Position numbers and translations under genes: made by a program
NCBI RefSeq assembly: GCF_009859475.1
Contig: NZ_CP044550.1
Coordinates: 186,001 to 250,000, forward strand
Direction: 5' to 3'
DNA: 64,000 nt
DNA from: Hydrogenophaga sp. BPS33
Lineage (GTDB): Bacteria; Pseudomonadota; Gammaproteobacteria; Burkholderiales; Burkholderiaceae_C
The notes under the pieces: model-generated
Databases searched by the model: none
Seen by the model: the letters and a program-made list of their open reading frames with translations, nothing else
Told to the model about the DNA's origin: nothing
Shown here: piece after piece, positions 11,064-35,649 of the stretch
Layout of the letters: each line of letters opens with the position of its first letter
How positions within the stretch are numbered: position 1 is the stretch's first letter

Positions 11064-11461
11064 TGATATCGTCGTTTCATTCAAAGGAATACTGTTCTTT
11101 TATGTGGAACATATAAGCTTCTTGAATTGCTCCTCTGCCTCTCCCTGTGCACTTTCGGAGGGACGTTGCATGACTTTTCGATCGGGCCGAAGTTCAGGAG
11201 AAGGGCGTGGGTGTGAGCTCTTCCGTGCGGAAGCGGCGCATGCTTCGCTGGGTCGGTGATGATCGTGTGTGGAAGCTGCAGGCGAGCGGTTGACAAGCAC
11301 TCGATAGGGATCCATCGGCAGGGCTTCGATCCTTGAATGACCGGCGTCGCTCCAGTGACGTGCAGGTCTTGACCATGATAAAAATTGATGGGACCTCGAC
11401 AAATCAAGATTGGACACGTATGCGTGGTGTCGCTACGCTTTCAACCTTTTCGGAGACGCAT
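11064..11461. other. 398-bp stretch between IS1071 and etfB without a supported gene
   Basis: Short overlapping frames occur on both strands but none has a ribosome site or a recognisable family. The left end (TGATATCG...) directly abuts IS1071, so part of it may be the remains of whatever the element cut. The last 20 bases hold the etfB ribosome site. No convincing promoter pair was picked out. Confidence 0.5.
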
Positions 11462-12211
11462 ATGAAGATATTGGTGGGTGTCAAACGCGTGGTGGATTAC
11501 AACGTCAAGGTTCGAGTCAAGAGCGACGGCAGCGGTGTGGACATCGCCAACGTCAAGATGAGCATGAACCCGTTCGACGAGATCGCGGTGGAAGAAGCGG
11601 TTCGTTTGAAAGAGAAGGGTGTGGTCACCGAAGTGATCGCCGTGTCTTGTGGCGTCACGCAATGCCAGGAAACGTTGCGCACCGCCATGGCGATTGGCGC
11701 GGACCGCGCCATCCTGGTGGAAACTAGTGAAGAGCTGCAGCCGCTGGCCGTGGCCAAGCTGCTCAAGGCGCTGGTGGACAAGGAACAACCCGGCCTGATC
11801 ATTCTGGGCAAACAGGCTATCGACGACGACTGCAACCAGACCGGCCAGATGCTCGCTGCGTTGGCTGGATTGCCGCAAGCTACTTTTGCATCGAAGGTGG
11901 AAGTGGCCGACGGGAAAGTCAGCGTCACACGCGAAGTGGATGGTGGCTCTGAGACGCTGGCGCTCACGTTGCCTGCCGTGATCACCACCGACCTGCGTTT
12001 GAACGAGCCGCGTTATGTGACGCTGCCCAACATCATGAAGGCGAAGAAGAAGACGCTGGACATCGTCAAACCCGAAGACCTCGGTGTGGATGTGAAGCCG
12101 CGCATCAAGACCTTGAAGGTCAGCGAGCCACCGAAGCGTGGCGCAGGCGTGAAGGTGGCGGACGTCGCCGCCCTGGTGGACAAGCTCAAGAATGAAGCAA
12201 AAGTGATCTGA
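11462..12211 (+). CDS. etfB: Electron transfer flavoprotein, beta subunit
   Basis: A 249-aa ETF beta subunit, which with the alpha subunit carries electrons from acyl-CoA dehydrogenases to ETF:ubiquinone oxidoreductase. The start at 11462 follows GGAGACGCAT; upstream in-frame codons lack family similarity. The protein shows [40 protein letters not shown], the [13 protein letters not shown] loop, the LGKQAIDDD nucleotide-binding motif and [14 protein letters not shown] before the C-terminal arm. It is 11 bp ahead of etfA. The likely client is the acyl-CoA dehydrogenase encoded at 19643-20806. A decayed second copy lies inverted at 27310-27909. Confidence 0.95.
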
Positions 12212-12222
12212 GGAACCGACAA

Positions 12223-13158
12223 ATGACCGTACTCGTTATTGCCGAACACGACAACGCCAGCATCAAGCCGGCCACCCTCAACACCGTGACCGCCGCCGCC
12301 CAATGCGGGGGTGACGTGCACGTGCTCATCGCGGGGCACAACGCCGGTGAAGCCGCCAAAGCCGCTGCCGCCATCGCCGGCGTCGCCAAAGTCATCCACG
12401 CCGACGCGCCGGGCTTCGAACACGGCCTGGCCGAGAACGTCGCAGCGCAGGTGTTGGCCATCGCCGGCGACTACAGCCACATCCTGTTCCCGGCGACGGC
12501 CAGCGGCAAGAACGTGGCACCGCGCGTGGCCGCCACGCTGGACGTGGGCCAGCTCTCCGACATCACCAAAGTGATCAGCGCCGACACCTTCGAGCGCCCG
12601 ATCTACGCCGGCAACGCCATTGCCACCGTGCAGAGCACCGACGCGAAACACGTCGTCACGGTGCGCACGACCGGCTTCGATCCGGCAGCGGCCACGGGTG
12701 GCAGCGCAGCAGTGGAAGCCGCCACGGCTGCATTGGGCGACGGCAAGAGCGAATTCAAAGGCAGCGAGATTGCGAAGAACGACCGCCCCGAACTGACCGC
12801 CGCGAAGATCATCGTCTCCGGTGGCCGCGCGCTGGGCAGCAGCGAGAAGTTCAACGAAGTCATGACGCCGCTGGCCGACAAGCTGGGCGCGGCCATCGGC
12901 GCGAGCCGCGCGGCGGTGGACGCGGGCTACGCACCGAACGACCTACAAGTCGGCCAGACCGGCAAGATCGTGGCGCCGCAGCTGTACATCGCGGCGGGCA
13001 TCTCGGGTGCCATTCAACACTTGGCCGGCATGAAGGATTCCAAGGTGATCGTGGCGATCAACAAGGACCCGGAAGCGCCGATCTTCTCAGTGGCCGATTA
13101 CGGCTTGGAGGCCGACCTGTTTACGGCGGTTCCTGAGTTGACGAACGCAATTGCGTAG
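12223..13158 (+). CDS. etfA: Electron transfer flavoprotein, alpha subunit
   Basis: A 311-aa ETF alpha subunit. The C-terminal FAD-binding domain is complete: SGGRALGSSEKF, GAAIGASRAAVDAGYAPNDLQVGQTGKIVAPQLYIAAGISGAIQHLAGMKDS and VAINKDPEAPIFSVADYGLEAD. The N-terminal domain (VLVIAEHDNASIKPATLNTVTAA) is normal. It is translated with etfB as a pair and forms the heterodimer holding one FAD and one AMP. The gene is followed by a short palindrome and then by three insertion sequences. If it was once continuous with the CoA pathway downstream, those elements now separate them. Confidence 0.95.
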   Translation: MTVLVIAEHDNASIKPATLNTVTAAAQCGGDVHVLIAGHNAGEAAKAAAAIAGVAKVIHADAPGFEHGLAENVAAQVLAIAGDYSHILFPATASGKNVAPRVAATLDVGQLSDITKVISADTFERPIYAGNAIATVQSTDAKHVVTVRTTGFDPAAATGGSAAVEAATAALGDGKSEFKGSEIAKNDRPELTAAKIIVSGGRALGSSEKFNEVMTPLADKLGAAIGASRAAVDAGYAPNDLQVGQTGKIVAPQLYIAAGISGAIQHLAGMKDSKVIVAINKDPEAPIFSVADYGLEADLFTAVPELTNAIA

Positions 13159-17536: not shown

Positions 17537-17721
17537 ACACCGAGGCGACAACTACCTTGACACACGCCGTGGTTTTGAAAAGTAAGGAATTCGGGGGAGA
17601 CGTCAGGCCGATGGGCGAAGGGAGTCGGTGTCCGGGAATCGGGGCAGTCCACGCTGAGCGTCTCGGTGCCAGGTGACAGTGGTGCGAATGCCGCTGCGAT
17701 CACCCTGTAGCGAAAGGACCT

Positions 17722-18528
17722 TTACAGCGTGCCGTCGATTCCGGTCGAAAGATGTGGCAGCAGTTCGTTTGGAATAGTGGCGGCAAAGGAAAACATGTCT
17801 CCGCGATACCACGACAGGGCCAGATACACACCTCGTCCCTTGGTGTCGATCGCTCGCCTTAGGACGCGAGCTACGGGGGCGCCGAGTGGGCAGCGTAAAT
17901 GGTCGGCGAGTACGACGTCGGCCGGCTCCACTGTGATGATCAGCTTGAGTTCAAGTGCACCGACGGCCGGAAGAGCTCTCACCATGGGCAAAACCTTCTT
18001 CTTCTCAATGGCCCCTTTGGGCAGGCGGCGGTAAATCGAATCTGCGACACAGATTCTTATAAGCCCCAGGGGGCGCCCCTCGAACTTGTGAATCTTCGTG
18101 ATGCCTTTGTATGTAGGAAATGCAATGGCTTCCTTGAGCATATCCGCCGGTACGGTCGTCAAGTCGTCAACGGCCAGGATCACGATCTCCACGCTGGAAA
18201 CATCGGCGTCCATCGCGTCTGCGATTTGGGGAGCAGGCTTGCTCTGCGACGGATGCTGTAAGACATGGATGCCACGCCCTCGGCTAGAGACGAGAAGTCC
18301 TTCTTCAGCAAGGACCCGTATGGCTTCCCGAATGGTAATGCGGGCCACCTTGAAGTGATCACCGAGTTCGACCACCGTCGGCAATCGAGAACCTGGCGCG
18401 ATGGCTCCAGAAAGGATGGCATAGCGCAGGATGTTGGCGACCTGTATGTATAGGCTGACACCCTGCGTCTGATCGACGCTCAGATTTCCGGCTTCGGCAG
18501 GGATGAGGAAATGGGGACTTCTTTGCAT
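17722..18528 (-). CDS. GntR-family regulator with UTRA domain (HutC type)
   Basis: A 268-aa repressor-type protein. The N-terminal winged helix spans residues 24-90 (SLYIQVANILRYAILSGAIAPGSRLPTVVELGDHFKVARITIREAIRVLAEEGLLVSSRGRGIHV). The rest is a UTRA effector domain, with IHKFEGRPLGLIRICVADSIYRRLP and a C-terminal GVYLALSWYRGDMFSFAATIP. It is divergent from the Bug-to-CoA-transferase gene series that starts at 18635, with 106 bp between. It is the obvious regulator of that pathway; the ligand is probably the substrate or an early CoA ester. Confidence 0.88.
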   Translation of the reverse strand: MQRSPHFLIPAEAGNLSVDQTQGVSLYIQVANILRYAILSGAIAPGSRLPTVVELGDHFKVARITIREAIRVLAEEGLLVSSRGRGIHVLQHPSQSKPAPQIADAMDADVSSVEIVILAVDDLTTVPADMLKEAIAFPTYKGITKIHKFEGRPLGLIRICVADSIYRRLPKGAIEKKKVLPMVRALPAVGALELKLIITVEPADVVLADHLRCPLGAPVARVLRRAIDTKGRGVYLALSWYRGDMFSFAATIPNELLPHLSTGIDGTL

Positions 18529-18590
18529 GGGCGACAGACTATCACGGAGGTGATTTCCCGCCGCCGGTGAAAAAATCGCACCATTAAACC

Positions 18591-18608
18591 GTATAACCGG
18601 TGTATAAT
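18591..18608 (+). promoter_or_regulatory. Promoter element and candidate GntR operator
   Basis: A consensus TATAAT at 18603-18608 lies 27 bp before the Bug-gene start. It overlaps the second of two GTATAA direct repeats (18591-18596, 18602-18607) separated by CCGGT. The -35 region is weak (around ACCATT), suggesting regulation. The repeats recall the GT-N-TA-N-AC half-sites reported for HutC-type regulators, but the match is imperfect. Confidence 0.45.
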
Positions 18609-18634
18609 TTCAAGACGCACATTGAAAGGTATTT

Positions 18635-19615
18635 ATGTTCACGAAAACACAGTCTTTATGTCGCTCTCTTCTCGCTTGTTGTCTGGTTCTGCTGGGATCC
18701 CTGGCGAATGCGCAGGCAATTGACTACCCGACACGCACCATTAAGTTCGTTGTGCCCTTCCCCTCGGGAAGCGGCACCGACCAATCCGCCCGTGAGGCGG
18801 CCAACGACATCACTCGCCGAACCGGTCAGCCTGTGATCGTCGAGAACAAACCTGGCGCAAATGGCTTGATCGCCGCGCAACAGGTTGCTCGGGCAGCGCC
18901 TGACGGCTACACCGTCTTCATCACCAGCATGACGACGCAGTCGGTCAATCCCTTCCTCTACAAGAAGCTGCCCTACGACCCGGTGGCGGATTTCATCCCG
19001 GTGGCGATGATTTCCAAGAACGCGATGGTGCTTGTGGTGAGGAACACCGAGGATCAGCCAAAGAGCGTCGCGGAGCTTACAGCGCGAATGCAGGCTGCGG
19101 GCTCGAAGCTGAGCTTCGCGAGTGGCAACACCTCTTCTCTGGTAGCGGGAAAAACCTACTCCAATGCCGTTTCTTCTCCCGCGCTTCATGTCCCTTACAA
19201 GGGAATTCCGCAAGCCGTCACCGATCTCATGGCCGGGGCGGTCGACTTCATGTTCTCAGATCTGACGGTGGCCAACCCCCTGGTTCAACAGGGGCGGCTT
19301 CGTGGTCTTGGGGTGACCGGTCCAACCAGAGCGTCAACCCTGCCAGACGTCCCGACGATGCGAGAAGCCGGCATGCCGATCGAACTGAGTGTCTGGAACG
19401 GAGCCTACGTTCCTGCAAAGACGCCGCATGCGGTTGTTGTCCGTTTGAACGAACTTTTGAATCAGGCGACGCAGAGCAAGCAAGGTCAAGAGAGATTCAA
19501 GCAAACCGGCGGCACCGTCGACACGATGTCGCCGGAAGAATTCGCAAAATTCAACGAGCAGGAAGTGCTGATCTGGGGCCGCGCTGTGCGTGGCGCGGGC
19601 ATTCAACCTGAATGA
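18635..19615 (+). CDS. Bug/TctC-family substrate-binding protein (region B)
   Basis: A 326-aa periplasmic binding protein with a signal peptide (FTKTQSLCRSLLACCLVLLG, cleavage near ANA-QAI). GAAAGG stands upstream of the ATG. Family stretches include RTIKFVVPFPSGSGTDQSAREAA, VIVENKPGANG, AAPDGYTVFITS, LPYDPVADF, HVPYKGIPQAVTDLMAGAVDFMFSD and the C-terminal LIWGRAVRGAGI. It is the first gene of the GntR-controlled series, 27 bp ahead of the acyl-CoA dehydrogenase, and would feed the carboxylic acid that the CoA-transferases activate. Sequence clearly differs from the two cargo A Bug proteins. Confidence 0.9.
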   Translation: MFTKTQSLCRSLLACCLVLLGSLANAQAIDYPTRTIKFVVPFPSGSGTDQSAREAANDITRRTGQPVIVENKPGANGLIAAQQVARAAPDGYTVFITSMTTQSVNPFLYKKLPYDPVADFIPVAMISKNAMVLVVRNTEDQPKSVAELTARMQAAGSKLSFASGNTSSLVAGKTYSNAVSSPALHVPYKGIPQAVTDLMAGAVDFMFSDLTVANPLVQQGRLRGLGVTGPTRASTLPDVPTMREAGMPIELSVWNGAYVPAKTPHAVVVRLNELLNQATQSKQGQERFKQTGGTVDTMSPEEFAKFNEQEVLIWGRAVRGAGIQPE

Positions 19616-19642
19616 CACATTGCAACACGTAAAGGACGATGA

Positions 19643-20806
19643 ATGGAAGCAATTATTCCAAACTTGGAAGAATTGGAGCATCTTCGACAGACCACTCGCA
19701 GGTTCATGCGAGATGAAGTAAGGCCAGCCGAAGACAAGGTGCAGCACGATGCATATGAGCTGCCACAAGAACTGCTAAATCCGCTCAAACAAAAAGCGAA
19801 AGAGATCGGGCTTTGGGCCCTGCGCTCTCCAGCCGAGTATGGCGGCCAGGGGATGGGATTAGAGGCCTCAGCCGTCTTCGCTGAAGAGGCATCGCGATGC
19901 AAGATGGGCGCGTATATTCCGGCATGCGGGGCTACAGGGAGCAACCCGCCTGCGCCGATTCTTCTGGGCACTAAAGAGCAGATTGAAAGGTTCGCGATTC
20001 CTGCAATTGCGGATGGGGCCAAGGTCTTTATGGCGATTAGCGAGTCATCGGGCGGATCGGACCCGGCTCGCTCTATTCGCACGCGTGCAGTGCTCAAAGG
20101 TGACCACTATGTTTTGAACGGATCCAAACTGTGGATTTCGGGTGCTCAGAGTGCGAAGTGGGGGCTGGTATTTGCCCGCACCGGCGATCAAGGCGACCGC
20201 GGCGGGATCACCTGCTTCATCATCGACGGCAAGCCCAAAGGCTTGGCGCTCCGTGAAGTGCCGGTCATTCGCTCATTCCCGACCTATGAACTTACATTCG
20301 ACAACGTTGAAGTTCCAGTGGAGAACCGCTTGGGTGGCGAAGGCCAGGGCTTTGCGCTTTGTGAGCGCTTGTTGGTCGAGGCACGTGTGCCGTACGCAGC
20401 GGGTTGCATCGGCATCGCACAGGAAGCACTCGAGATTGCGATCGACTGGGCTCGTGATCGGAGGGCATTTGGTTCGACGCTGAGCGAGAAGCAATCCATT
20501 CAGTGGATGATTGCAGACAGCGACATGGAACTACGAGCCGCACGGCTTTTGACGCAGGACGCCGCACGCAAGTGCGATGCTGGTCTTCCATTCAAGGTGG
20601 AGGCATCGATAGCCAAGGTCGTTGCCACAGAAACAGCGGGACGCGTGGTCGATCGATGCCTTCAGATTTTGGGCGGGATGGGCGTTGCCAAAGAAATGCC
20701 GCTTGAGCGCTGGTATCGGGAACTCCGCATCAAGCGCATCGGAGAGGGGCCTTCCGAAGTTCACCGGATGGTTCTTGCTCGTCAACTCTTCAGAGGCACT
20801 GCCTGA
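19643..20806 (+). CDS. Acyl-CoA dehydrogenase
   Basis: A 387-aa flavin enzyme that would introduce an alpha,beta double bond into an acyl-CoA and pass electrons to ETF. N-terminal helical domain, then the middle beta domain with AISESSGGSDPARSIRTRAV and LNGSKLWISGAQSAKWGLVFART. The C-terminal domain has LSEKQSIQWMIADSDMELRAARLL, FKVEASIAKVVATETAGRVVDRCLQILGGMGVAKEMPLERWYRELR and IGEGPSEVHRMVLARQL. The catalytic glutamate is probably E368 in the EGPSE loop. AAAGGA precedes the start. etfBA at 11462-13158 would supply its electron acceptor. Confidence 0.93.
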   Translation: MEAIIPNLEELEHLRQTTRRFMRDEVRPAEDKVQHDAYELPQELLNPLKQKAKEIGLWALRSPAEYGGQGMGLEASAVFAEEASRCKMGAYIPACGATGSNPPAPILLGTKEQIERFAIPAIADGAKVFMAISESSGGSDPARSIRTRAVLKGDHYVLNGSKLWISGAQSAKWGLVFARTGDQGDRGGITCFIIDGKPKGLALREVPVIRSFPTYELTFDNVEVPVENRLGGEGQGFALCERLLVEARVPYAAGCIGIAQEALEIAIDWARDRRAFGSTLSEKQSIQWMIADSDMELRAARLLTQDAARKCDAGLPFKVEASIAKVVATETAGRVVDRCLQILGGMGVAKEMPLERWYRELRIKRIGEGPSEVHRMVLARQLFRGTA

Positions 20807-20819
20807 TCGAGGTATCTGT

Positions 20820-21593
20820 ATGTCAATTGATTTTGAAATCGTGGAAGACGGCATTGCCCGAATCACACTTAATCGCCCGGAACGAAACAACGCATTTGAC
20901 GAAGAACACTACCGGGATCTTTCTCTTGCCTGGGCAAGGGTGCGAGATGACCAGGCTATCCGCGTTGCCATCATCACCGGCGCGGGCGAAAAATCATTTA
21001 GCTCGGGCGCTGACCTGAAGTCATTTTTCGGCAAAAGAACCGCCACCGAGATGTGGCTGACGCAAAAGGACCAACTTCTCAATCGGGGGCTGGAGATATG
21101 GAAGCCGATCGTTGCCGCCGTCAACGGCTATTGCCTCGGTGGGGGCATGACCCTTCTGATGGCAACCGATGTTCGGGTGGCCGCTGAGCATGCGACTTTC
21201 GCGCTGTCAGAAGTCAAGCGGGGCATTGTGGCTGGCAACGGCGGGACGCAACGAATACTGGATCAGTTGCCGCGCGCCATCGCCATGGAGGTGCTGCTCA
21301 CCGGGGACCGGTTCGACGCCGCCACCGCCGAACGGTGGGGGTTCGTCAACAAGGTTGTCCCGCTGGAACAATTGCAGGAAACGGCATTGACATACGCGCG
21401 AAGGCTCAATTCCAGCGCGCCACTCGCTCTTCAGGCTTCCAAAGAGCTGGCACTGCGAAGCCGCGAGATGAGCTTGGCAGACGGATTCCGGATGGAACTG
21501 TTCTTTAATCGCATGCTCCAGGCAACCGAGGATTTCAAGGAAGGCTCGGCGGCATTTGCAGAAAAGCGCAATGCGCGCTTCACGTCGACATGA
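20820..21593 (+). CDS. Crotonase-fold protein (enoyl-CoA hydratase/isomerase family)
   Basis: A 257-aa enzyme starting at the ATG at 20820, 13 bp after the dehydrogenase stop. Crotonase features: ITLNRPERNNAFDEEHY, an oxyanion-hole segment FSSGADLKSFF, AAVNGYCLGGGMTLLMATDVRVAAEHATFALSEVKRGIVAGNGGTQRI, and LTGDRFDAATAERWGFVNKVVP. Of the two hydratase glutamates, the second is kept (E131 in LSEVKRG), but the first, which follows GGG-C in classical hydratases, is replaced by T111 (GGGMT). It may therefore not be a simple syn-hydratase; hydrolase, isomerase or lyase activity is possible. Its last bases overlap the next gene by ATGA. Confidence 0.88.
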   Translation: MSIDFEIVEDGIARITLNRPERNNAFDEEHYRDLSLAWARVRDDQAIRVAIITGAGEKSFSSGADLKSFFGKRTATEMWLTQKDQLLNRGLEIWKPIVAAVNGYCLGGGMTLLMATDVRVAAEHATFALSEVKRGIVAGNGGTQRILDQLPRAIAMEVLLTGDRFDAATAERWGFVNKVVPLEQLQETALTYARRLNSSAPLALQASKELALRSREMSLADGFRMELFFNRMLQATEDFKEGSAAFAEKRNARFTST

Positions 21594-22729
21594 GCACGGC
21601 GAACGCCTTGAGCGGGCGCTACGTGGTTGCTGGAATCGGAAGCACTGCATTCGGAAAGCTCGGACTAGACACTGTTTCACTGAATGCGATGGCGTGCCGG
21701 GAAGCACTTGCAGATGCCGGCATTTGCAAAGAAGAGGTTGACGCGCTTTTTCTGAAGGCGCCGACCTCCGCAAGAGAATCGCTCTACGGTCAGAAAGTTG
21801 CGGACGCAATGGGCATGCAACCCCGGTGGGGGGGCGCGTGGGACCAAGGCGGCGCTGCCAACGTCACCTTGATCGCTTTCGCCATCATGGCCATCGAAGC
21901 CGGGCAATGCGAAGTGGCTTTGGTGTCCTATGCTGACAACCCGCGCAGCGGCGCGGCCGACTTCTTCGGCCGGCCCCGCGGCGCAGAAGCCCCTCACGGG
22001 TGGTTTTCCGCTGCGGCGTGGTACGCCATGATCCATCAGCGGCACATCATCGAGCACGCAACGCCGCCCGAAGCGTTCGGCGCAGTTGCCATCGCCGCGA
22101 GAAGGCACGGAGCCGCCAACCCGAATGCGCAGCTGCGAAAACCGATCACGATGAACGACTACCTGGCGTCTCCCATGCAGATCGAGCCGCTGCACCGTGA
22201 CGACTGCTGTCTTGTGTCCGATGGGGGCGGCGCAGTGGTGATCATGAGCGCGCAAAAGGCGAAAGACCTGCGCGTGCCTGCGCCAGTTCCCATTCTGGGA
22301 TTCGGCGGAGGCAATACATCCGTTGAGTTACAGAACCGCGCGTGCCTGACGACAACAGAGGCCGTGCGCTCTTCGAGATTGGCATTCGACATGGCCGGAG
22401 TGCGTCCAATCGACGTCGACGTCGCGCAAATATACGACTGCTTTTCGGTCGCCGTTCTCATGACGCTCGAAGACTACGGCTTCTGCAACAAGGGGAGCGT
22501 CTACGACTTTGTGCGTGACGGGCAGATCGAGTTCGGCGGGCGCCTTCCCATCAACACGAGCGGCGGCCTACTTTCAGAAACTGGCATGCCTGGCATGCAG
22601 CTTATCCACGAGGGTGTTCGGCAAATGCGCGGCTCGGCGACGCTGCAGGTGCCGGGTGCGAAATTGTGCGCGATCAGCAACCAGGGGGGGGCGATGCACA
22701 CGCACGCGACTCTCCTGCTTGGAACTTGA
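21590..22729 (+). CDS. Thiolase-fold protein (SCP-x/lipid-transfer type) lacking the nucleophilic cysteine; possible retro-aldolase
   Basis: A 379-aa member of the thiolase superfamily. The loop that normally holds the acyl-accepting cysteine reads DQGGAANVTL (residues 85-94) with no cysteine, and the GHP motif reads GMP. A YDCF motif at Y282 matches the YDxF of the SCP-x/Ltp2 group, and GGRLPINTSGGLLSE is present. The DUF35 gene follows 9 bp downstream. In the steroid aldolase Ltp2-ChsH2 the same pairing performs retro-aldol cleavage of a hydroxyacyl-CoA rather than thiolysis. That role is proposed here by analogy. It overlaps the crotonase gene by 4 bp. Confidence 0.85.
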   Translation: MSTANALSGRYVVAGIGSTAFGKLGLDTVSLNAMACREALADAGICKEEVDALFLKAPTSARESLYGQKVADAMGMQPRWGGAWDQGGAANVTLIAFAIMAIEAGQCEVALVSYADNPRSGAADFFGRPRGAEAPHGWFSAAAWYAMIHQRHIIEHATPPEAFGAVAIAARRHGAANPNAQLRKPITMNDYLASPMQIEPLHRDDCCLVSDGGGAVVIMSAQKAKDLRVPAPVPILGFGGGNTSVELQNRACLTTTEAVRSSRLAFDMAGVRPIDVDVAQIYDCFSVAVLMTLEDYGFCNKGSVYDFVRDGQIEFGGRLPINTSGGLLSETGMPGMQLIHEGVRQMRGSATLQVPGAKLCAISNQGGAMHTHATLLLGT

Positions 22730-22738
22730 GGTTACAGG

Positions 22739-23146
22739 ATGCTTCCGCAGCCAGAAATCACCACTGCCAACAAGCCTTACTGGGATGCATTGCACATGGG
22801 ACAGCTGATGTATCAGTGCTGTCCGTCGTGCGGCGCATGCTGGCTTCCCGCTCGAACGCTATGCCCCACTTGCCTTAAATCCGGCGTCGTCTGGCGGCCC
22901 GCCGAAGGGTCGGGGAAATTGGTGAGTTGGGTCGTCTTTCATGTCGCGTATCACGAGGCCTTCAAGGATAAGGTGCCGTACAACGTGGCGCTGGTCGAGT
23001 TGAAGGAGGGTCCCCGACTTATCAGCAGCGTTCTGGCTTCCTCGCAAGAACTTTACGGAGACGCGCCGCTGCGACTGAAGATCGAGACGGAAGACGGAAT
23101 CGCATTGCCGCGATTCTGTATTGAAAAGGATTCAGATGACAAATGA
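22739..23146 (+). CDS. Zn-ribbon/OB-fold DUF35 protein, partner of the first thiolase-like protein
   Basis: A 135-aa protein with an N-terminal helix, a zinc ribbon (CPSC at about residues 27-30 and CPTC at about 40-43) and an OB-fold (GSGKLVSWVVFHVAYHEAFKDKVPYNVALVELKEGPRLISSVL). DUF35 proteins bind thiolase-fold partners and probably hold the acyl-CoA. The placement right after the thiolase-like gene supports a complex. The stop overlaps the start of the CaiB gene. Confidence 0.9.
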   Translation: MLPQPEITTANKPYWDALHMGQLMYQCCPSCGACWLPARTLCPTCLKSGVVWRPAEGSGKLVSWVVFHVAYHEAFKDKVPYNVALVELKEGPRLISSVLASSQELYGDAPLRLKIETEDGIALPRFCIEKDSDDK

Positions 23147-24356
23147 AACGTCGGGGACGGCCGGGGCTCCGCTGCAAGGCGTAGTTGTGCTTGACCTCAC
23201 CCAGATTTACAACGGACCTTATGCGACCTTTCTGATGGCGATGGCTGGCGCCGATGTGGTAAAAATTGAGCCGCCGGACGGAGAGCATCTGCGACGCAGA
23301 CCCAATTCGGGTGGAACAACCGAGCCGTTTGCCGTTCTCAACGCGAACAAACGAAGTCTTGTCCTGGATCTCAAGACTGATGTGGGGCGTCAGGTTCTCC
23401 TCGAACTGGTCCGCAAGGCCGATGTCCTGGTCGAGAACTACGCACCCGGCGTTATGGCAAGGTTGAATCTTGGCGCCGATACGCTGCACCAGACAAACCC
23501 CCGGCTCGTGATTGCGTCCGGGAATGGTTATGGCGCCGAAGGGGCCTATCGCGACTTCACCGCCATGGACCTCACGGTGCAGGCGATGTCGGGCGTGTTG
23601 AGCGTCACCGGGCACCCGGACCAGGAGCCGGTCAAGGCCGGTCCAGCCATCGCCGATTTTTTTGGTGGCATCCACCTTTATGGTGCAATCGTCACGGCAC
23701 TCTACAAACGACAGCAGACCGGCGAAGGCTCCTGTGTCGAGGTGGCGATGATGGACGCGCTGGTTCCCAGCCTCATGTCCAACCTCGGACTGCATAACAG
23801 TGGGGAACTACAGAATTTGCGCACCGGCAACGGTCATGGCGGACTCCTTGTCGTTCCCTACAACGTCTACCCCGTACAGGACGGCGGTGTTGCCATCCTG
23901 GCTGTAAGCGACCAGCATTGGCTGGCACTGGGCGACGTCCTTGAGTACCCCGATCTGGTGACCGATCCCCGTTTTGTGGATAAGTCAAGCCGGGTCAAAA
24001 ACCGCGCTGCGCTCGACGCGCGGATCGGTGAGTTGACCATCAAGTTCACAAAACAAATGCTCTTCGATCGGCTGGTGGCAGCGCGCGTTCCGAGCGCTCC
24101 GGTCAGAAGTCTCGACGAAGTCATCAACGACGAACATCTTCATGCACGCGGGATGCTCAAGTGGACTGAGCACCCCGTCTATGGGCGCATGTTGGCCATG
24201 GGAAGTCCGCTGCGGTTCAGCGACTATGCCGGCCCGCGGGGCATTGACAGCCACGAGCTTGGCGCTGACAGCCAAGAGGTCCTAGCGCAGATGGCAAGCA
24301 TCAAAGGCTCTCAGTTTGACGAACTGGCGCGAGCCGGTGCATTTGGAAAGAAATGA
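23136..24356 (+). CDS. CaiB/BaiF family (family III) CoA-transferase
   Basis: A 406-aa enzyme that moves CoA between carboxylic acids. The ATG at 23136 has AAGGA upstream. Visible features: LQGVVVLDLTQIYNGPYATFLMAMAGADVVKIEPPDGEHLR at the N-terminus, FAVLNANKRSLVLDLKTDVGR, VENYAPGVMARLNLG, and FTAMDLTVQAMSGVLSVTGHPDQEPVKAG, where the aspartate in AMDLTVQAMSG is the catalytic residue of the family. The C-terminal RVPSAPVRSLDEVINDEHLHARGML is also typical. It overlaps the upstream DUF35 gene by 11 bp and is one base ahead of the second DUF35 gene. It may activate the substrate with CoA from a downstream product. Confidence 0.92.
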   Translation: MTNETSGTAGAPLQGVVVLDLTQIYNGPYATFLMAMAGADVVKIEPPDGEHLRRRPNSGGTTEPFAVLNANKRSLVLDLKTDVGRQVLLELVRKADVLVENYAPGVMARLNLGADTLHQTNPRLVIASGNGYGAEGAYRDFTAMDLTVQAMSGVLSVTGHPDQEPVKAGPAIADFFGGIHLYGAIVTALYKRQQTGEGSCVEVAMMDALVPSLMSNLGLHNSGELQNLRTGNGHGGLLVVPYNVYPVQDGGVAILAVSDQHWLALGDVLEYPDLVTDPRFVDKSSRVKNRAALDARIGELTIKFTKQMLFDRLVAARVPSAPVRSLDEVINDEHLHARGMLKWTEHPVYGRMLAMGSPLRFSDYAGPRGIDSHELGADSQEVLAQMASIKGSQFDELARAGAFGKK

Positions 24357-24357
24357 A

Positions 24358-24759
24358 ATGGGATTGAACAGTCAACTTCAAGAATCGGCTGAGCGCGGCG
24401 TGGAGGCCACTTACTTTGCGGCGCTGACGCAAGGAAAACTGATGATTCAACGTTGCGCCAATTGCAAGCGCGCCATTTTCTACCACAGGCAGTTCTGCCC
24501 GCATTGCGACAACGAAACCCTCACGTGGGAGCAGGCGTCAGGTGCCGGGACCGTGCACTCGGTGACGACGTTGCGTACGAAGCCAGACCGGCCATACAAC
24601 ATTTCCCTGGTTGATCTGGACGAAGGGGTCCGCATGATGGGCCGTGTGGACGGCATTGCGCCCGACGACGTGAAGATCGGGATGCGTGTGCACGCACGGA
24701 TCATCGAACAGGGCGGTAAGCCTCTGGTCGTCTTCCTGACCTCGCCGGAGGCCGCATGA
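24358..24759 (+). CDS. Second Zn-ribbon/OB-fold DUF35 protein
   Basis: A 133-aa protein with zinc ribbon CANC...CPHC (residues about 31-49) and an OB-fold (SGAGTVHSVTTLRTKPDRPYNISLVDLDEGVRMMGRV). The start at 24358 is chosen from the spacing after GGAAAG. It differs from the DUF35 protein at 22739-23146 and lies directly before the second thiolase-like gene (4-bp ATGA overlap). Each thiolase-fold protein therefore has its own DUF35 partner, in opposite gene order. Confidence 0.9.
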   Translation: MGLNSQLQESAERGVEATYFAALTQGKLMIQRCANCKRAIFYHRQFCPHCDNETLTWEQASGAGTVHSVTTLRTKPDRPYNISLVDLDEGVRMMGRVDGIAPDDVKIGMRVHARIIEQGGKPLVVFLTSPEAA

Positions 24760-25931
24760 ACGAATCCCTTCTTCGCGGCGCGGTCGCGATCTCCGGTGTC
24801 GGGACAGCGGGGTGCGGAGATGCGTCCGGCTTTACTGACATGGAAATACTGGCAAAGGCAGCGCGGTCCGCCGTGCACGATGCGGGTCTGAAGATGTCGG
24901 ACATCGACGGCATTGCCACCGCCAACCTCAGCGCTGCATTGTGGCCCTTGAACGTCGTCGAGTATCTCAATGTCCGTCCTTCCTATGTCGATGGAACCAA
25001 CATAGGAGGGACATCGTTCATCGGTCATATGCTGCCAGCTGCAAGAGCCTTGATGAGCGGGCAATGTAATGCGGTACTCGTGTGTTACGGAAGCACTCAG
25101 CGATCAACAAGGGTTCCCCGGCGCGAGCGTGCGGATGCAAGGGCGCTTCTAGACCCGCTGCCATATGAAGCACCTTATGAGCCGTTCAACCCGCCCTCTT
25201 CTTACGCGCTCATTGCCGCGCGGCACATGCACGAGTATGGAACGACCCGGCGTCAACTCGCCGAGGTTGCGGTGGCTGCCCGACGTTGGGCTCAACTTAA
25301 TCCGGAAGCGTTCGCGCGGGACCCGCTGAGCCTGCAGGACGTTCTCTCCGCCCGGATGGTCAGCGACCCATTCACGGTTTATGACTGCTGCCTTGTCACC
25401 GACGGCGCGGGAGCTTTCGTGATGGTGCGCTCCGACAGGGCGCGGGATCTGCCCCAAAAGCCCGTTCACGTGCTGTCGTGTGCGACGAGCGTCTGGCATC
25501 GCCAGGTTTCCGGCATGCACGATCTGACGGTGACGCCCGCATCCGAATCCGGCCCGAAAGCCTTGGCTCAGGCGGGCCTGACAACCGCGGACATGGACAT
25601 GGTCCAGCTCTACGACGCGTTCACTATCAACACGATCATGCTTCTGGAGGATCTGGGATTCTGCAAAAAAGGCGAAGGCGGCGCCTTTGTGGAAAACGGC
25701 GCAATTGCGCCAGGCGGACGCTTGGCCGTGAACACCAACGGCGGCGGACTCTCCTGCGTTCATCCCAACATGTACGGCGCGTTCGCGGTGATCGAAGCAG
25801 TGCGGCAGTTAAGAGGCGACTGTGGCGAGCGACAGCTTAGCAAGGCCCGGACCGCACTGGTCCACGGCAACGGCGGCGTTTCCGCCGCCGCCCAGTCCAC
25901 GGCCGTTCTCTCCACTTCGGACGTCCTGTGA
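24756..25931 (+). CDS. Second thiolase-fold protein lacking the usual cysteine
   Basis: A 391-aa protein of the SCP-x/Ltp2-like thiolase group. The nucleophile loop reads TNIGGTSFIG (81-90), again without cysteine. It keeps LYDAFTINTIMLLEDLGFCKKGEGG (Y286), GGRLAVNTNGGGLSCVHPNM and a glycine-rich C-terminus (VHGNGGVSAAAQ). With its DUF35 partner it could cleave a beta-hydroxyacyl-CoA by retro-aldol chemistry or act as a specialised thiolase. Two such pairs suggest that two carbon units, or two branches, are removed in one pathway. It ends 37 bp before the CoA-transferase alpha gene. Confidence 0.85.
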   Translation: MNESLLRGAVAISGVGTAGCGDASGFTDMEILAKAARSAVHDAGLKMSDIDGIATANLSAALWPLNVVEYLNVRPSYVDGTNIGGTSFIGHMLPAARALMSGQCNAVLVCYGSTQRSTRVPRRERADARALLDPLPYEAPYEPFNPPSSYALIAARHMHEYGTTRRQLAEVAVAARRWAQLNPEAFARDPLSLQDVLSARMVSDPFTVYDCCLVTDGAGAFVMVRSDRARDLPQKPVHVLSCATSVWHRQVSGMHDLTVTPASESGPKALAQAGLTTADMDMVQLYDAFTINTIMLLEDLGFCKKGEGGAFVENGAIAPGGRLAVNTNGGGLSCVHPNMYGAFAVIEAVRQLRGDCGERQLSKARTALVHGNGGVSAAAQSTAVLSTSDVL

Positions 25932-25968
25932 AAGCGAATCAACGTTCGGCACCCAAAGAAGTATGCCC

Positions 25969-26646
25969 ATGAACAAAATATGCCCAGATATCGCGACGGC
26001 AATCGCCGATATCCGCGATGGATGCACAGTGCTTGTGTCCGGTTTCGGGGGCGCCGGCCATCCTACCGATCTGATTCATGCGCTGATCGATCAAGGAGCT
26101 CGCGACCTCACGATCGTCAACAACAATGCGGGTAACGGAGAGAACGGTCTCGCTGCACTTCTCAAAGCCGGGCGGGTTCGCAAGATCATCTGCTCGTTCC
26201 CCAAAACCGCAAACTCCCATGTTTTCGACAGCCTCTATGCCGCCAAGGAGATTGAGCTGGAACTGGTACCGCAGGGAACGTTGGCTGAACGCCTGCGGTG
26301 TGCAGGAGCGGGCCTCGGAGGATTTTTCACGCCTACTGGGGTAGGGACGCCAATCGCGCAGGGCAAGCGCACGGAAGTGATAAACGGTAGGGAGTTCCTT
26401 TTCGAAACACCGTTGCCCGCCGAGTTCGCGCTGATCCAGGCCGACGCTGCCGATCGCTGGGGCAATTTGACGTACCGCAAGACGGCGCGCAATTTTGGCC
26501 CTGTGATGTGTGCCGCGGCTACCACCACGATCGTGCAGGTTGCCCGCATCGTCCCTCTTGGAAGTATCGATCCGGAGCATGTCGTCACACCCGGGATTTT
26601 TGTTTCCCGAGTCGTAGAAGTCAGTCATCCACTGTATTCAAGCTGA
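25969..26646 (+). CDS. 3-oxoacid/glutaconate-type CoA-transferase, subunit A
   Basis: A 225-aa alpha subunit from the ATG at 25969; an ATG two codons earlier is equally possible. Family features: DIRDGCTVLVSGFGGAGHPTDLIHALIDQG, DLTIVNNNAG, IICSFPKTANSHVFDSLYAAKEIELELVPQGTLAERLRCAGAGLGGFFTPTGVGTPIAQGK, and PAEFALIQADAADRWGNLTYRKTARNF. It forms a heterodimer with the next gene product and transfers CoA, most often from succinyl-CoA to a 3-oxoacid. The spacing to subunit B is 8 bp. The exact acid cannot be inferred. Confidence 0.92.
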   Translation: MNKICPDIATAIADIRDGCTVLVSGFGGAGHPTDLIHALIDQGARDLTIVNNNAGNGENGLAALLKAGRVRKIICSFPKTANSHVFDSLYAAKEIELELVPQGTLAERLRCAGAGLGGFFTPTGVGTPIAQGKRTEVINGREFLFETPLPAEFALIQADAADRWGNLTYRKTARNFGPVMCAAATTTIVQVARIVPLGSIDPEHVVTPGIFVSRVVEVSHPLYSS

Positions 26647-26654
26647 GGAGCCGT

Positions 26655-27293
26655 ATGAACAAATGGACAACCCAGGAGATGGCTCAACGGCTCGCGCGAG
26701 ACATCGAGCCCGGATGGTATGTGAACATCGGAATCGGAATGCCGGAAATGGTCTGCGAGAACTTGCGCGAAGACGATGACATCATCTTGCAGAGCGAGAA
26801 CGGCATCCTCGGCATGGGACCCCTGGCGCGCGGAGATGACATCGACACCGACCTTGTCAATGCAGGCAAGAAGCCTGTCACCGCACGTTTAGGGGCGTCC
26901 TACTTCGAGCACACCACATCGTTCGCGATGATGCGTGGAGGGCATCTCGACCTGTGCATCTTGGGCGCCTTCCAGGTATCGGGCAGCGGGGATCTGGCGA
27001 ACTGGTCCCTGGGCAGACCGGGCATTCCGCCGGCCGTAGGCGGTGCGATGGATTTGGCGGTTGGGGCCAAGCGGGTGTACGTCATCATGGACCACACTAC
27101 AAAAGACGGGGGGCACAAAATACTGCCGCAGTGCACGCTGCCACTGACCGGTCTGTGCGTCGTGACGCGTGTCTACACCGATTTGGCCGTCCTGGAACGA
27201 CGGCATGACCGCATGCATGTCATCGATCTTGCACCCGGTGTCTCGTTTGACATGGTCCAGCGAGCGACGAGTGTGCCACTTATCGCGCCCTGA
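26655..27293 (+). CDS. 3-oxoacid-type CoA-transferase, subunit B
   Basis: A 212-aa beta subunit starting at 26655 behind GAGGAG. The catalytic glutamate is the E in LQSENGILGMGP, which forms the covalent thioester. GWYVNIGIGMPEMVCENL, YFEHTTSFAMMRGGHLDLCILGAFQVSGSGDLANWSLGR and GGAMDLAVGAKRVYVIMDHTTKDGGHKI are further family stretches. It is the last intact gene of the GntR-controlled series; a heavily decayed etfB lies beyond it in the opposite orientation. Confidence 0.93.
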   Translation: MNKWTTQEMAQRLARDIEPGWYVNIGIGMPEMVCENLREDDDIILQSENGILGMGPLARGDDIDTDLVNAGKKPVTARLGASYFEHTTSFAMMRGGHLDLCILGAFQVSGSGDLANWSLGRPGIPPAVGGAMDLAVGAKRVYVIMDHTTKDGGHKILPQCTLPLTGLCVVTRVYTDLAVLERRHDRMHVIDLAPGVSFDMVQRATSVPLIAP

Positions 27294-27309
27294 TTCGTTC
27301 GTGTCAGCG

Positions 27310-29114: not shown

Positions 29115-32100
29115 GGGGTCTCCTCGTTTTCAGTGCAATAAGTGACGGTACGAAAAGCTAGCACTGGCGCGGAGGTGGTGTTGGTAGATCGTTGATTTCA
29201 TTGACTTTCCTGTTCACTTTCAAATCTGCGATTCGTGGCGTCAAACCGTGGTCGGTTTCATCCATTGGTGCCAGTTATCGATGCATTTGGCCGCGAAGGC
29301 AGGATTTGGTCAGCATAGCGGTCAACCGGGAAGCGAAACACACCCCGCAAGTTGATGCTCTCCAGCCTGGTGGGCGCAATCTTCCCGATCAGTTCCGGTG
29401 GAATGACCTGGCGGCGGTTCGACCAGCGATCCAGGACCGCCTGCATCTGTGAGGTATTCCACGCCATCACGATGTTGGCCATCAGGCTCAACGCATCGGC
29501 CACAGCCTGCATTTCATCGACACGTTTGGCCTGCGCCGGGCTGATCCGGCCGGTATAAATGGCGCGCTTGAGGGCGTTAACAGCCTCGCCCCGATTGAGC
29601 ACCCGGCGCAACTCGTTCCTGAAAGCGTCCTTGACAAAGTAGTCAGCCAAAAACGCCGTACGCAGCAACCGCCCCAATTGCACGCCAGCCTCATAGATTG
29701 GATCGCCCTGGGCGGCAGAACCGAACCGCGCAAGAGCTGCCACCGCACTGGCATGTCCGCTCATGACCGAGGCTGCCAGGTGCACCAGACTATCCCAATG
29801 CTTTTCGATCAAAGCGACGTCGACATTGGCTTCGCACACCGCAGCGATTTCTGCGGGCACTTTGGTGCCGCGTGGCACAAAGAGGTGGCGCTGTTTGAGT
29901 TCCTTCAACCGCGGGCAAAGATCAAAACCAAGCAAACGGGCATGTGACATGGCAAAGTCGGTGTAGCCATGGGTATCCACAGCAAGCTGGCTGGTCTCCA
30001 GCTTTTCTTGGCGGATGACACCTTCAATGGCCACGCCCGCCTGGCGCTCATTGAGCACAAAGGGCTGCGCATGGAAGATGCCCCACCGGTCTTTTACATG
30101 GGAGTAGATTCCAATGGAAGGTGTGTTGCGCCGAGGATCAAGCCGGGCTTGCCACACCCGTTTGGTGGTCTCCATGCTCATCATGTCAGAAGATGCCAAA
30201 TCGGACCGCCCCCAGGTGGCGGCAATCGGGTGTCGCTGCATGAATTCCAGCACAGCCTGGCAGGCCTGGCTCAGACGCCGTTCGTCCCGCGCCCAGCGCA
30301 TGGCCTGGCGAATGCTGGTGGCAGACAATTGCGGAATCATGCGCGCGCATTCGACCGCAGTCAGACTGGTGCCGTGGGCCATGATGCCGGCATAGACCAT
30401 CAGCAGCTCGTCGGTAGAGCGCGGCTCACGTCCGAGCATGATCCAGCTAAAGCGCACCTGGGCGTCAACGGCCAGAATCACTTCCGGCAATTGAACCTCA
30501 CCGATGCGGTGATCCAAAGCCGCGCGCAGCTTGGTCACTTCTGGGTCTTCGTCCTCTGCGGGCAATGGCGACAAATGGAGTTCATCATCCACGCGCAGTA
30601 CGCCACTGCGGGCTGCAGCGGCCACCGCATCGACACCGGCAGTTACTCTGGCCAGCAAAGGCTTCAAGAAAGTGGCAGCCTTGCTGGGTAACGATAGACG
30701 GGCATAGTGTTTCTTGGACTCTGCCTGCCAACGCTCGTCCGTGAAGAACAAGCGCGCACGACCCCGAAAGCTCAGGCTGTGCTCAATCCAGACCGAGCCA
30801 TTGCGCACCGCGCGGCGCAGGGCAAACAGGGTGGCCACCTCCAACGCCTGAAACGCCCGTTCCCGGTCTGGGCTGGAGATCGAAACCTGCCAGATCATTC
30901 CCAGACTTGGTGCCACCACTTCAACTGGCAGCTTTCTGGATCCTTTGAGATATAAAGCTTGCAGCTTGGCAAGGTACTCGATGGCAGGATGCTCGCCGGT
31001 GGCCTGCCAGGGCAGCTTTGCAATGGCGACGAGCAACGACCGCACGGGGCGAATTCCATCAATCAATCCCTCGCGGACCAGGGAGGCCCTGCTCGGTGGT
31101 TTGCGTTTCTGGGTTTCGGTGATCAAGGCTTCAAGACGGGCACGCAACTCAGCATCTGGCACCGCACCTTGCGCGCTCAAGGCAACAAGTTCGCCGAGCA
31201 GCGTTTTGTACATTGCGGCCCAATTGACGGTAGCGGGGACATCGGCGGCAGCCTGACGCCACAGATCGGCGATCCGGCGCTGCACCATAAGGATCAACTG
31301 GTCTGTGGTGGTGAACAGGCAATACCGAAGAAAGCATGCGACCTCCACGGTGCGCGCTGGCTCTTTGATCTTGGCTCCGGCTGAGGGCGGCCTGGAGACA
31401 AGTCGGCGCGCGTAGCGGCGCAAGATGAGATCGGGGATGTCTGCCAGGTGCTTATGAACGTCCAGCGTGTAAAGCAGGTCGATGCGCTCCAGTACCTCGC
31501 TGATTTGGCGGGTTGAGTGTTTCGCCGGTGCAGCCCATAGCCAACTCTGCTGGGTTTGTCCATCTGGGCGCAGCTCTGAAACTGAGGCTCGCCAGCGATC
31601 AAGTGTTGCTGGATCAACGCTGGCGGCGATGGCGGTGCCTGTTTCAACTTCAAGCTGGGCAAGTGCCGCCGCAATCAGTGTCCGAATTGCCCGCTCGTGC
31701 ACGATCACCAGCTTGTTCTTGTACAGCCATTGACGCGCCCGCACGAGTAGCTGATCGCGGTCGGCGCAGCGCGCCACTTCGTCGCGCAGTTCACGTACCA
31801 GTGAGCGGCGCTGGTGCTCGCTCATCCACTGGAATCCAAGGACCGTGCAGGCTACTTGTTGGTGATCGAATAGCGTGCGCCCGCGTTCATACATGGCTCT
31901 CAGCGAGGCGACTTCTGGTGCTGCAATGCCAAGCTCGTTGCCAAGGTGGCGCCACAAGGCTACTGGAATTACCCGAAAGGCACCGAGCAAACGCCCACTC
32001 ATGCGCAGGAAACCAATATGGAGCGCCAGACCAAGCTTGTGGGAATCACCTCGGCGTGCATTGATTGCGTCGCGCTCGGCACCATCGAAGGTGAAAAATG

Positions 32101-32318
32101 CCTTCATCTCGAAGTCGCTGATATCGCGGGGGAGCCCACGCATCCCCAAAAACGTTGTGTGCCAACCCTGCATCGTGAACCTCAAAAGTGGGAGGCCACC
32201 ATACCCGTTTACAAAGCGAACAGGAAAGTCAATGAAATCAACGGTCTACCCAGACCACCCCCGCGCCAGTGCTAGCTTTGCGTACCGTCACTTATTGCAC
32301 TGAAAACGAGGAGACCCC
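29115..32318 (-). mobile_element. IS1071 copy 2 (complete)
   Basis: 3,204 bp from GGGGTCTCCTCG to GAGGAGACCCC. Left flank TCAAT lies inside the truncated CMD gene; right flank CAGAA is the first base block of cargo A. There is no target duplication, so the left and right neighbours were brought together by recombination. Confidence 0.97.
29258..32173 (-). CDS. tnpA: IS1071 transposase TnpA (copy 2)
   Basis: A 971-aa Tn3-family transposase with product identical to that of copy 1 at 8003-10918, including the DTHGYTD signature and the NIVMAWNT region. Intact, so the element is probably able to move. Confidence 0.97.
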   Translation of the reverse strand: MQGWHTTFLGMRGLPRDISDFEMKAFFTFDGAERDAINARRGDSHKLGLALHIGFLRMSGRLLGAFRVIPVALWRHLGNELGIAAPEVASLRAMYERGRTLFDHQQVACTVLGFQWMSEHQRRSLVRELRDEVARCADRDQLLVRARQWLYKNKLVIVHERAIRTLIAAALAQLEVETGTAIAASVDPATLDRWRASVSELRPDGQTQQSWLWAAPAKHSTRQISEVLERIDLLYTLDVHKHLADIPDLILRRYARRLVSRPPSAGAKIKEPARTVEVACFLRYCLFTTTDQLILMVQRRIADLWRQAAADVPATVNWAAMYKTLLGELVALSAQGAVPDAELRARLEALITETQKRKPPSRASLVREGLIDGIRPVRSLLVAIAKLPWQATGEHPAIEYLAKLQALYLKGSRKLPVEVVAPSLGMIWQVSISSPDRERAFQALEVATLFALRRAVRNGSVWIEHSLSFRGRARLFFTDERWQAESKKHYARLSLPSKAATFLKPLLARVTAGVDAVAAAARSGVLRVDDELHLSPLPAEDEDPEVTKLRAALDHRIGEVQLPEVILAVDAQVRFSWIMLGREPRSTDELLMVYAGIMAHGTSLTAVECARMIPQLSATSIRQAMRWARDERRLSQACQAVLEFMQRHPIAATWGRSDLASSDMMSMETTKRVWQARLDPRRNTPSIGIYSHVKDRWGIFHAQPFVLNERQAGVAIEGVIRQEKLETSQLAVDTHGYTDFAMSHARLLGFDLCPRLKELKQRHLFVPRGTKVPAEIAAVCEANVDVALIEKHWDSLVHLAASVMSGHASAVAALARFGSAAQGDPIYEAGVQLGRLLRTAFLADYFVKDAFRNELRRVLNRGEAVNALKRAIYTGRISPAQAKRVDEMQAVADALSLMANIVMAWNTSQMQAVLDRWSNRRQVIPPELIGKIAPTRLESINLRGVFRFPVDRYADQILPSRPNASITGTNG

Positions 32319-34447: not shown

Positions 34448-34630
34448 GGCGTTGTCTCCTGGGCATTGCGGCGCGGAAAACGCGCCTGATGCTCCGCATG
34501 CTACGCAGCGGCGACCAGAGCACCTACGGCCAACCGCCATCAAAACTTGCAGGCCAAGGGACGGTCCGATGCCTGGCTGTGCCGTGTGGGTTCGGGCGCG
34601 CAACGCCCGGTCCACGAGTCGCGCAAGCAT

Positions 34631-35572: not shown

Positions 35573-35649
35573 GATTCCCCCATACGGCGTGACGCTACAG
35601 TTGGATCAAGTTCGTTCGCGGTGGCCCGGTGACGGGCTCTTGACGAGAA

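Follow-up and report, generated by a model that had tools for sequence, protein, structure and literature searches.

Two thiolase-fold/DUF35 pairs without the nucleophilic cysteine in one Hydrogenophaga operon: a probable aldolytic form of beta-oxidation

What can a thiolase fold do once its nucleophilic cysteine is gone? The question is raised by an operon of Hydrogenophaga sp. BPS33 that lies in a stretch of 64,000 nucleotides (the window; positions 186001-250000 of contig C2, which has 339,634 bases, in a genome of 6.77 Mb and three contigs). Ten genes on the + strand, each separated from the next by no more than 37 bases or slightly overlapping it, form one operon at 18635-27293, and two of them encode thiolase-fold proteins, here called THL1 and THL2. 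An earlier interpretation without database searches (the sequence-only reading) had placed two Cys-less thiolase-fold/DUF35 pairs at 21590-25931, beside an acyl-CoA dehydrogenase (ACAD), a crotonase and two kinds of CoA-transferase, and had suggested an aldolytic route of side-chain shortening. Its coordinates and gene content are correct: each thiolase-fold protein has its own DUF35 protein, with OB-fold and zinc-ribbon domains above the Pfam cut-offs, and one transferase is of the CaiB type (class III), the other a pcaI/pcaJ-type enzyme of class I. In our view the operon probably serves to degrade an imported carboxylic acid by an aldolytic form of beta-oxidation, with THL1 as the putative retro-aldolase. 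The ten genes are, in order:

18635..19615, + strand: TctC-type solute-binding receptor, operon gene 1 (PF03401, 201 bits; 27 bases to the next gene)
19643..20806, + strand: ACAD, presumed base Glu368 (PF00441/PF02770/PF02771)
20820..21593, + strand: crotonase-fold protein, Thr111 at the first catalytic Glu place, Glu131 retained (PF00378, 222 bits)
21590..22729, + strand: THL1, thiolase-fold presumptive retro-aldolase; Gly88 (nucleophile column), Tyr282, Cys284
22739..23146, + strand: DUF35a, zinc-ribbon/OB-fold partner of THL1 (Cys28, 31, 42, 45; PF01796, PF12172)
23136..24356, + strand: class III (CaiB/formyl-CoA-transferase type) CoA-transferase (PF02515, 357 bits)
24358..24759, + strand: DUF35b, zinc-ribbon/OB-fold partner of THL2 (PF01796, PF12172)
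24756..25931, + strand: THL2, thiolase-fold; Gly85 (nucleophile column), Tyr286 (YDAF), His336 (CVHP) (NF004811, 630 bits, cut-off 421)
25969..26646, + strand: ScoA, 3-oxoacid CoA-transferase subunit A, pcaI/scoA family (TIGR02429, 354 bits, cut-off 128.5)
26655..27293, + strand: ScoB, 3-oxoacid CoA-transferase subunit B, pcaJ/scoB family (TIGR02428, 267 bits, cut-off 243.55)

In a MAFFT alignment of 120 sequences, five of them solved relatives, the loop that should hold the nucleophile reads DQGGAANV in THL1 (from residue 85) and NIGGTSF in THL2 (from residue 82), as had been read from the letters. Gly88 of THL1 and Gly85 of THL2 stand where BbsB and 7yvy have their Cys, and where these two have HDAF, THL1 has YDCF (from residue 282) and THL2 has YDAF (from residue 286), so that the YDxF tyrosine is retained in both. 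The loss of the cysteine is not due to chance, as Gly fills the nucleophile column in 59/59 THL1 relatives and in all 16 distinct THL2-like sequences, window included; YDCF is present in 57 of the 59, the others having YDPF and YGPF. A plain Cys-dependent thiolase is ruled out by this Gly and by YDxF in place of HDxF. No other Cys of THL1 or THL2 is convincing in the role of nucleophile: the conserved CC pair (DCC in the operon sequence) also occurs in BbsB, as QCC, beside its own nucleophile.

In its residues THL1 is closer to the bile-acid C5 side-chain aldolase CtSal-CtShy (9myr; CtShy is the DUF35 partner) than to the steroid aldolase Ltp2, which it resembles in fold and logic. According to PMC12329534, Tyr302 and Cys304 of the Sal motif YDCY are catalytic, C304A, C304S and C304H have no detectable activity, and Gly stands at the nucleophile place. 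Tyr282, Cys284 and Gly88 of THL1 match these residues (YDCF for YDCY), and THL1 too has a DUF35 partner; it thus carries the proven Sal motif, though its clade appears not to be that of Sal, whereas THL2 with its YDAF lacks the Cys. The systems differ in that DUF35 is fused to a MaoC hydratase in CtSal-CtShy, whereas the operon has a separate DUF35 gene and a crotonase; DUF35a is encoded by a stand-alone gene and has four conserved Cys positions, no MaoC fusion and no Cys3His1 zinc site.

Ltp2-ChsH2 (6ok1), the steroid C3 side-chain aldolase with its DUF35 partner, shares with the operon the fold, the YDxF tyrosine, the lack of a nucleophilic Cys and a dehydrogenase-hydratase-aldolase logic. 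Its residues, as given in PMC12329534, are Tyr294 and His296 of YDHF and the acid Tyr344. Both YDHF and Tyr344 are missing in THL1 and THL2, and Ltp2 belongs to a separate clade; the likeness to Ltp2 drawn in the sequence-only reading therefore holds for fold and logic, but not for the full catalytic set. IpfD-IpfE of the ibuprofen plasmid pIBU218 is likewise a Cys-less thiolase-fold/DUF35 pair with YDxF, located beside insertion sequences, but in IpfD a Tyr occupies the Ltp2 Tyr344 column, and the protein lies on a separate branch. BbsAB (7pxp), the benzoylsuccinyl-CoA thiolase, also combines a thiolase fold with a DUF35-type subunit, but BbsB has the nucleophilic Cys and HDAF, which rules out the benzoylsuccinyl-CoA (Bbs) pathway. 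The alignment to Ltp2, IpfD and BbsB that had been proposed as a check thus gives Gly for the BbsB Cys in both proteins and neither the Tyr344 of Ltp2 nor the Tyr of IpfD. On pIBU218 (L080), a second thiolase/DUF35 pair with a crotonase and a CaiB gene was noted at 939-4557, about 9 kb from the ipf genes, and its thiolase is close to Ltp2 (475 bits, YDHF).

In a tree of 105 rows, a 100/100 branch splits eight Cys/His rows from 97 Gly/Tyr rows. The THL1 clade (59 rows, support 100/99) is nested in a larger group (99/93), whose further members are Ltp2 and IpfD, the Ltp2-like pIBU218 protein, the locus L060 and the Hydrogenophaga paralogues L091, L101, L102 and L105. Ltp2 clusters with L101, L105 and the pIBU218 protein (100/99), with neither THL1 nor THL2 inside, and L101 and L105 are themselves Ltp2-type YDHF proteins. 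Orthology with Ltp2 or IpfD is ruled out by the tree and by the residues. Sal joins the THL2 side at just 80/26, THL1 standing apart with Ltp2 and IpfD; several rows, Sal and IpfD included, are long branches of unsure placement. At the level of sequence, the assignment of THL1 as a retro-aldolase is well supported, because a Sal-type Tyr/Cys motif, a clade near Ltp2 and IpfD, and the usual lack of a dehydrogenase gene alongside coincide.

The division into Gly/Tyr and Cys/His classes also runs through the Hydrogenophaga genome. Among its 26 PF22691 matches, 25 were scored (L106, a 48-position match with no tblastn match, was left unscored), and 6 are Cys/His and 19 Gly/Tyr, with no mixed type. 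Loss of the nucleophilic Cys is therefore common rather than rare. Most of the 26 thiolase-fold places adjoin DUF35, which lies within 250 bp of 18 of the 19 Gly-type members (1.6 kb for the remaining one) and of 3 of the 6 Cys-type members. A short-chain dehydrogenase/reductase (SDR) gene, as would be expected next to a thiolase, lies within 300 bp and in the same orientation in 5/6 Cys-type vs 0/19 Gly-type members (Fisher p = 1.1e-4), a test that overstates independence because two of the five positives (L099, L100) are neighbouring paralogues; the counts become 5/6 vs 3/19 at 1.5 kb (p = 0.006) and 5/6 vs 5/19 at 3 kb (p = 0.02). Gene borders in these adjacency counts were estimated from the C-terminal domain, and 90 of the 91 SDR matches in the genome were used, all on contig C1, with one more on C3 and none on C2. 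The pairing of Gly with Tyr, as opposed to Cys with His, may serve as a simple sequence test. Three of the 19 Cys-less members (own-genome L087, L088 and L096, of Tyr type) have a Cys one position past the nucleophile column (GGC).

THL1 does not stand alone, since its gene cluster recurs at 60 loci with 37-71% identity, in which features were counted on the same strand within 6.5 kb. From an initial 76 loci, the same-species L003, the truncated matches L061 and L063 and the weak or partial ones L064-L078 were left out, and the plasmid loci L001 and L002 were added. Not all are independent: L008 and L062 share a contig, and L010 is nearly a copy of L012. The 60 include L060, which has 37% identity and falls outside the THL1 clade; it does not figure in the 59 motif rows. 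By record title the loci belong mainly to Pseudomonadota, and also to Actinomycetota, Chloroflexota, Bacillota, Eremiobacterota and one Deltaproteobacterium. A DUF35a match is present in 60/60, a crotonase (at least 55% identity) in 57/60 and in 44/44 where the flanking sequence suffices, and an ACAD (at least 44%) in 37/60 and in 30/44 by the same restriction. A CaiB-type transferase occurs in 44/60 (33 of them at 44% or above), and in L053 and the uncounted L061, where no match to CaiB exceeded the search cut-off, ScoAB adjoins THL1. SDR genes were found in 10/60, ScoA in 1/60, and 3HCDH (searched with five query domains) in 5/60, each time on the opposite strand.

THL2 was found on the same strand within 6.5 kb in 0/60 of these loci, and a THL2-like gene (48-53% identity) lies on the opposite strand in L007, L014, L021 and L048. 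Within the loci searched, both pairs in a single operon are seen in this species only; a contig recorded as Ottowia thiooxydans DSM 14619 (L003) has the same operon, with proteins 96-100% identical. Beyond the loci, at least 2,177 THL1-related protein clusters were found at E <= 1e-90 among 8,000 scored candidates, the motif being checked for 120 listed. Among the NCBIfam models THL1 scores best with PRK06158, at 299 bits (cut-off 421), and no listed curated model covers it. THL1 is thus one member of a large family, widely distributed and as yet uncharacterised, whose proteins probably cleave carbon chains in the retro-aldol manner.

For the operon as a whole we infer the following reactions and step order. 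TctC would assist uptake of the acid, the CaiB-type transferase would form its CoA ester, ACAD (perhaps with EtfBA) would introduce an alpha,beta double bond, and the crotonase would hydrate the enoyl-CoA. THL1/DUF35a would then cut the 3-hydroxyacyl-CoA by a direct retro-aldol reaction into an acyl-CoA and an aldehyde or ketone, with Tyr282 as the base on the hydroxyl and Cys284 as the acid for the enolate. Neither 3-ketoacyl-CoA formation nor thiolysis would be required, and the proposed step resembles that of CtSal-CtShy, which is aldolytic and has no ketone intermediate. In content the operon corresponds to an igr/chs-like module (ACAD, hydratase-type, aldolase-type and DUF35 genes, with no hydroxyacyl-CoA dehydrogenase). 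The steroid C3 side-chain genes, described in PMC12502768 as dehydrogenase, hydratase and aldolase plus DUF35, match the THL1 cluster, with a crotonase where the steroid set has a MaoC hydratase.

DUF35b-THL2 sits immediately 5' of ScoAB, and enzymes of the ScoAB family act, per family name, on 3-oxo acids; on this basis we hypothesize two successive cleavages. If the other product of THL1 is a 3-oxo acid, ScoAB could re-activate it and THL2/DUF35b could cut a second time. Some observations weigh against the proposed route. THL2 has Ala where Sal has its Cys, and at the Ltp2 Tyr344 place or close to it a His instead of a Tyr, which is why the second cleavage is put forward as a hypothesis. SDR genes near some THL2 relatives count against a dehydrogenase-free role for the whole THL2 group, and in the crotonase the first catalytic Glu is replaced by Thr (aligned with Glu of 5zai), the second being kept. 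The aldolytic route suggested by the sequence-only reading therefore appears right in kind for THL1, whereas THL2 fits neither Sal nor Ltp2, and its reaction is less certain than that of THL1.

THL2 retains the His of the thiolase GHP motif (His336), and both YDAF and this His are present in 16/16 THL2-like sequences. In the MAFFT alignment, THL1 has Gly and THL2 has Asn at the Ltp2 Tyr344 column, with His336 three columns off; in HMMER alignments of 4u4e and BbsB, the His falls in the Tyr344 place of the Ltp2-like protein. Tyr286 with His336 would then represent a third catalytic arrangement. In the tree, 4u4e and seven own-genome paralogues fall together with THL2 (100/92), and 4u4e, a putative thiolase of Sphaerobacter thermophilus, is the solved protein nearest to THL2 in sequence (348 bits; Gly, YDSF, HP). 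THL2 also passes the cut-off of PRK06158 (630 bits vs 421). Its predicted model is poor (pLDDT 61.4, 9 sequences), and a fold search gave a thiolase-like fold only; a megablast of THL2 against E. coli genomes had no match and is uninformative. One of the own-genome DUF35/THL2-like pairs (L129, contig C1 near 1430350-1433500) is followed by etfB and etfA that are 93% and 89% identical (tblastn) to the etfBA upstream of the operon.

These features leave room for a different role of THL2. It is possible, though in our view unlikely, that THL1 is a retro-aldolase and that THL2-DUF35b cleaves the 3-oxoacyl-CoA made by ScoAB through direct attack of CoA or water, aided by His336 and Tyr286, with no acyl-Cys. 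The position directly 5' of ScoAB fits this account, as does the Diaphorobacter plasmid locus L120, where DUF35, thiolase, TctC, ScoA and ScoB are followed by biotin-dependent carboxylase genes; so do the invariant GHP-type His, the absence of the Cys of Sal and of the His and Tyr344 of Ltp2, and the SDR genes near some relatives. However, the link to ScoAB is rare, recurring near a THL2 homologue in 1/18 other THL2 loci (L119-L131, L171-L175), THL2 shares with the proven aldolases the very exchange of the HDxF His for Tyr, and the tree sets the Tyr-type rows together, apart from the Cys-type. We also know of no thiolase that lacks the nucleophilic Cys.

The replaced Glu of the crotonase points to another account, which we regard as improbable: the crotonase itself would make the C-C cut, like 4-hydroxycinnamoyl-CoA hydratase-lyase (HCHL), and THL1-DUF35a would perform another step, such as decarboxylation or condensation. 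Thr111, Glu131 and Asn140 (within NGGTQR) are found in 58/58 cluster crotonases, window included. The missing residue corresponds to Glu144 of rat hydratase; HCHL-type hydratase-lyases also lack this first Glu, and sites of this kind occur in hydratase-lyases and enoyl-CoA isomerases. The EchA19 hydratase model scores higher (236 bits, cut-off 400) than the p-hydroxycinnamoyl-CoA hydratase/lyase model (156 bits, cut-off 276), both being below cut-off, and hydration by the operon crotonase is plausible. Glu368 of ACAD is present in 40/41 rows, window included, with one gap. As to decarboxylation, PMC12329534 reports that TbSLP decarboxylates malonyl-CoA weakly and that CtSal did not decarboxylate it. 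That both proteins are divergent thiolases with another or no nucleophile in normal beta-oxidation, the hydroxyacyl-CoA dehydrogenase being encoded elsewhere, is very unlikely: family models and databases do label them acetyl-CoA acetyltransferase or thiolase family protein, the genome holds 14 3HCDH_N besides its SDR matches, and Cys206 of THL1 (57/59) and Cys334 of THL2 (13/16) are conserved, but the Gly column, YDxF for HDxF, the CC pair that BbsB has as well, and SDR genes that adjoin Cys-type and not Gly-type members all speak against it.

Returning to the aldolytic route, its substrate can be guessed at weakly as a beta-branched dicarboxylic acid, in which a tertiary alcohol would block ordinary beta-oxidation. 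Deducing the substrate from neighbour genes was rejected, as the neighbours indicate no single compound: TctC occurs in 19/60 loci, HyuB in 9/60, an AMP ligase in 7/60 and an aldo-keto reductase in 5/60, and a sulfatase, a GMC oxidoreductase, a zinc-type dehydrogenase and others each in single loci. HyuA/HyuB (hydantoinase/oxoprolinase-like) genes lie by the ACAD gene in ten loci (L023, L024, L026, L032, L033, L038, L041, L045, L046 and L058), with HyuB on the same strand in nine and on the opposite strand in L046; they may perhaps reflect ring opening or ketone carboxylation upstream.

In the literature searched, which covered few subscription journals, papers on DUF35/thiolase retro-aldol chemistry and thiolase-superfamily aldolases concern, by title, solely steroids or bile acids. 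No paper was found joining IS1071 with ACAD, CoA-transferase and thiolase, or combining four or more of OB-fold, thiolase, CaiB, ACAD and hydantoinase. Within that literature the claim that no such pathway has been described stands, but the core cluster is widespread and not peculiar to the window. The system is probably a novel variant of aldolytic beta-oxidation whose core is widespread, and the operon is unusual by its second pair and its IS1071 setting. More tentatively, THL1 may mark a large cross-phylum non-steroid pathway of aldolytic beta-oxidation, made up of a CaiB transferase, ACAD, a Thr-type crotonase, a Tyr/Cys aldolase and DUF35. To this the operon would add THL2 as a retro-aldolase of Tyr/His type, with CoA transfer between the two cleavages, so that a branched acid would be cut twice with neither a 3-hydroxyacyl-CoA dehydrogenase nor a thiolase. 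If the aldolytic route is true, very many proteins named acetyl-CoA acetyltransferase or thiolase family protein would be CoA-dependent aldolases, and aldolytic cleavage, so far found mainly with steroids and ibuprofen, would be a route of bacteria in general for acids beyond the reach of ordinary beta-oxidation.

The surroundings of the operon comprise the following features:

8003..10930, - strand: IS1071 transposase, left flank (99.97% identical, across 2928 bases, to the IS1071 region annotated in NZ_CP136338.1)
11333..13158 (etfB start approximate), + strand: etfB-etfA, possible ACAD electron acceptor, within the same IS1071 interval (matches annotated ETF genes)
17722..18528, - strand: GntR/UTRA regulator, divergent to the operon (PF00392, PF07702)
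29258..32185, - strand: IS1071 transposase, right flank (same sequence as the left copy, 100% over 2928 bases)

The operon is thus cargo between two direct (same-strand) IS1071 copies, the arrangement of a composite transposon, which the sequence-only reading does not mention; the 2928-base stretch is present in four copies in the window, all 100% identical. As etfBA lies inside the same interval, ACAD travels with a possible electron acceptor. No structured RNA was found in 17500-27500 at Rfam gathering scores. IpfD-IpfE act downstream of a CoA ligase and a dioxygenase, according to PMC9195938; neither a Rieske dioxygenase nor an AMP-forming CoA ligase is among the ten operon genes, and a Rieske gene is present only in other IS1071 intervals. 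There, a unit of a LigXa-type Rieske oxygenase, a ferredoxin-type reductase and two TctC receptors, with ORFs of equal length, is repeated three times between IS1071 copies (window 1-7859, 32065-39923 and 42874-49108, the third unit being shorter), and the Rieske protein of this unit shares 82% identity with one encoded on the IncP plasmid pAKD15. A tyrosine-recombinase-like protein (weak XerD match) is encoded at 54334-55803, between the last IS1071 copy and a helicase gene. The latter, at 56615-61891, encodes a protein of 1758 aa that combines methyltransferase-like and SNF2-helicase-like parts and whose weak matches to mad2, type II methyltransferase and DrmD suggest that it is possibly an anti-phage or restriction protein.

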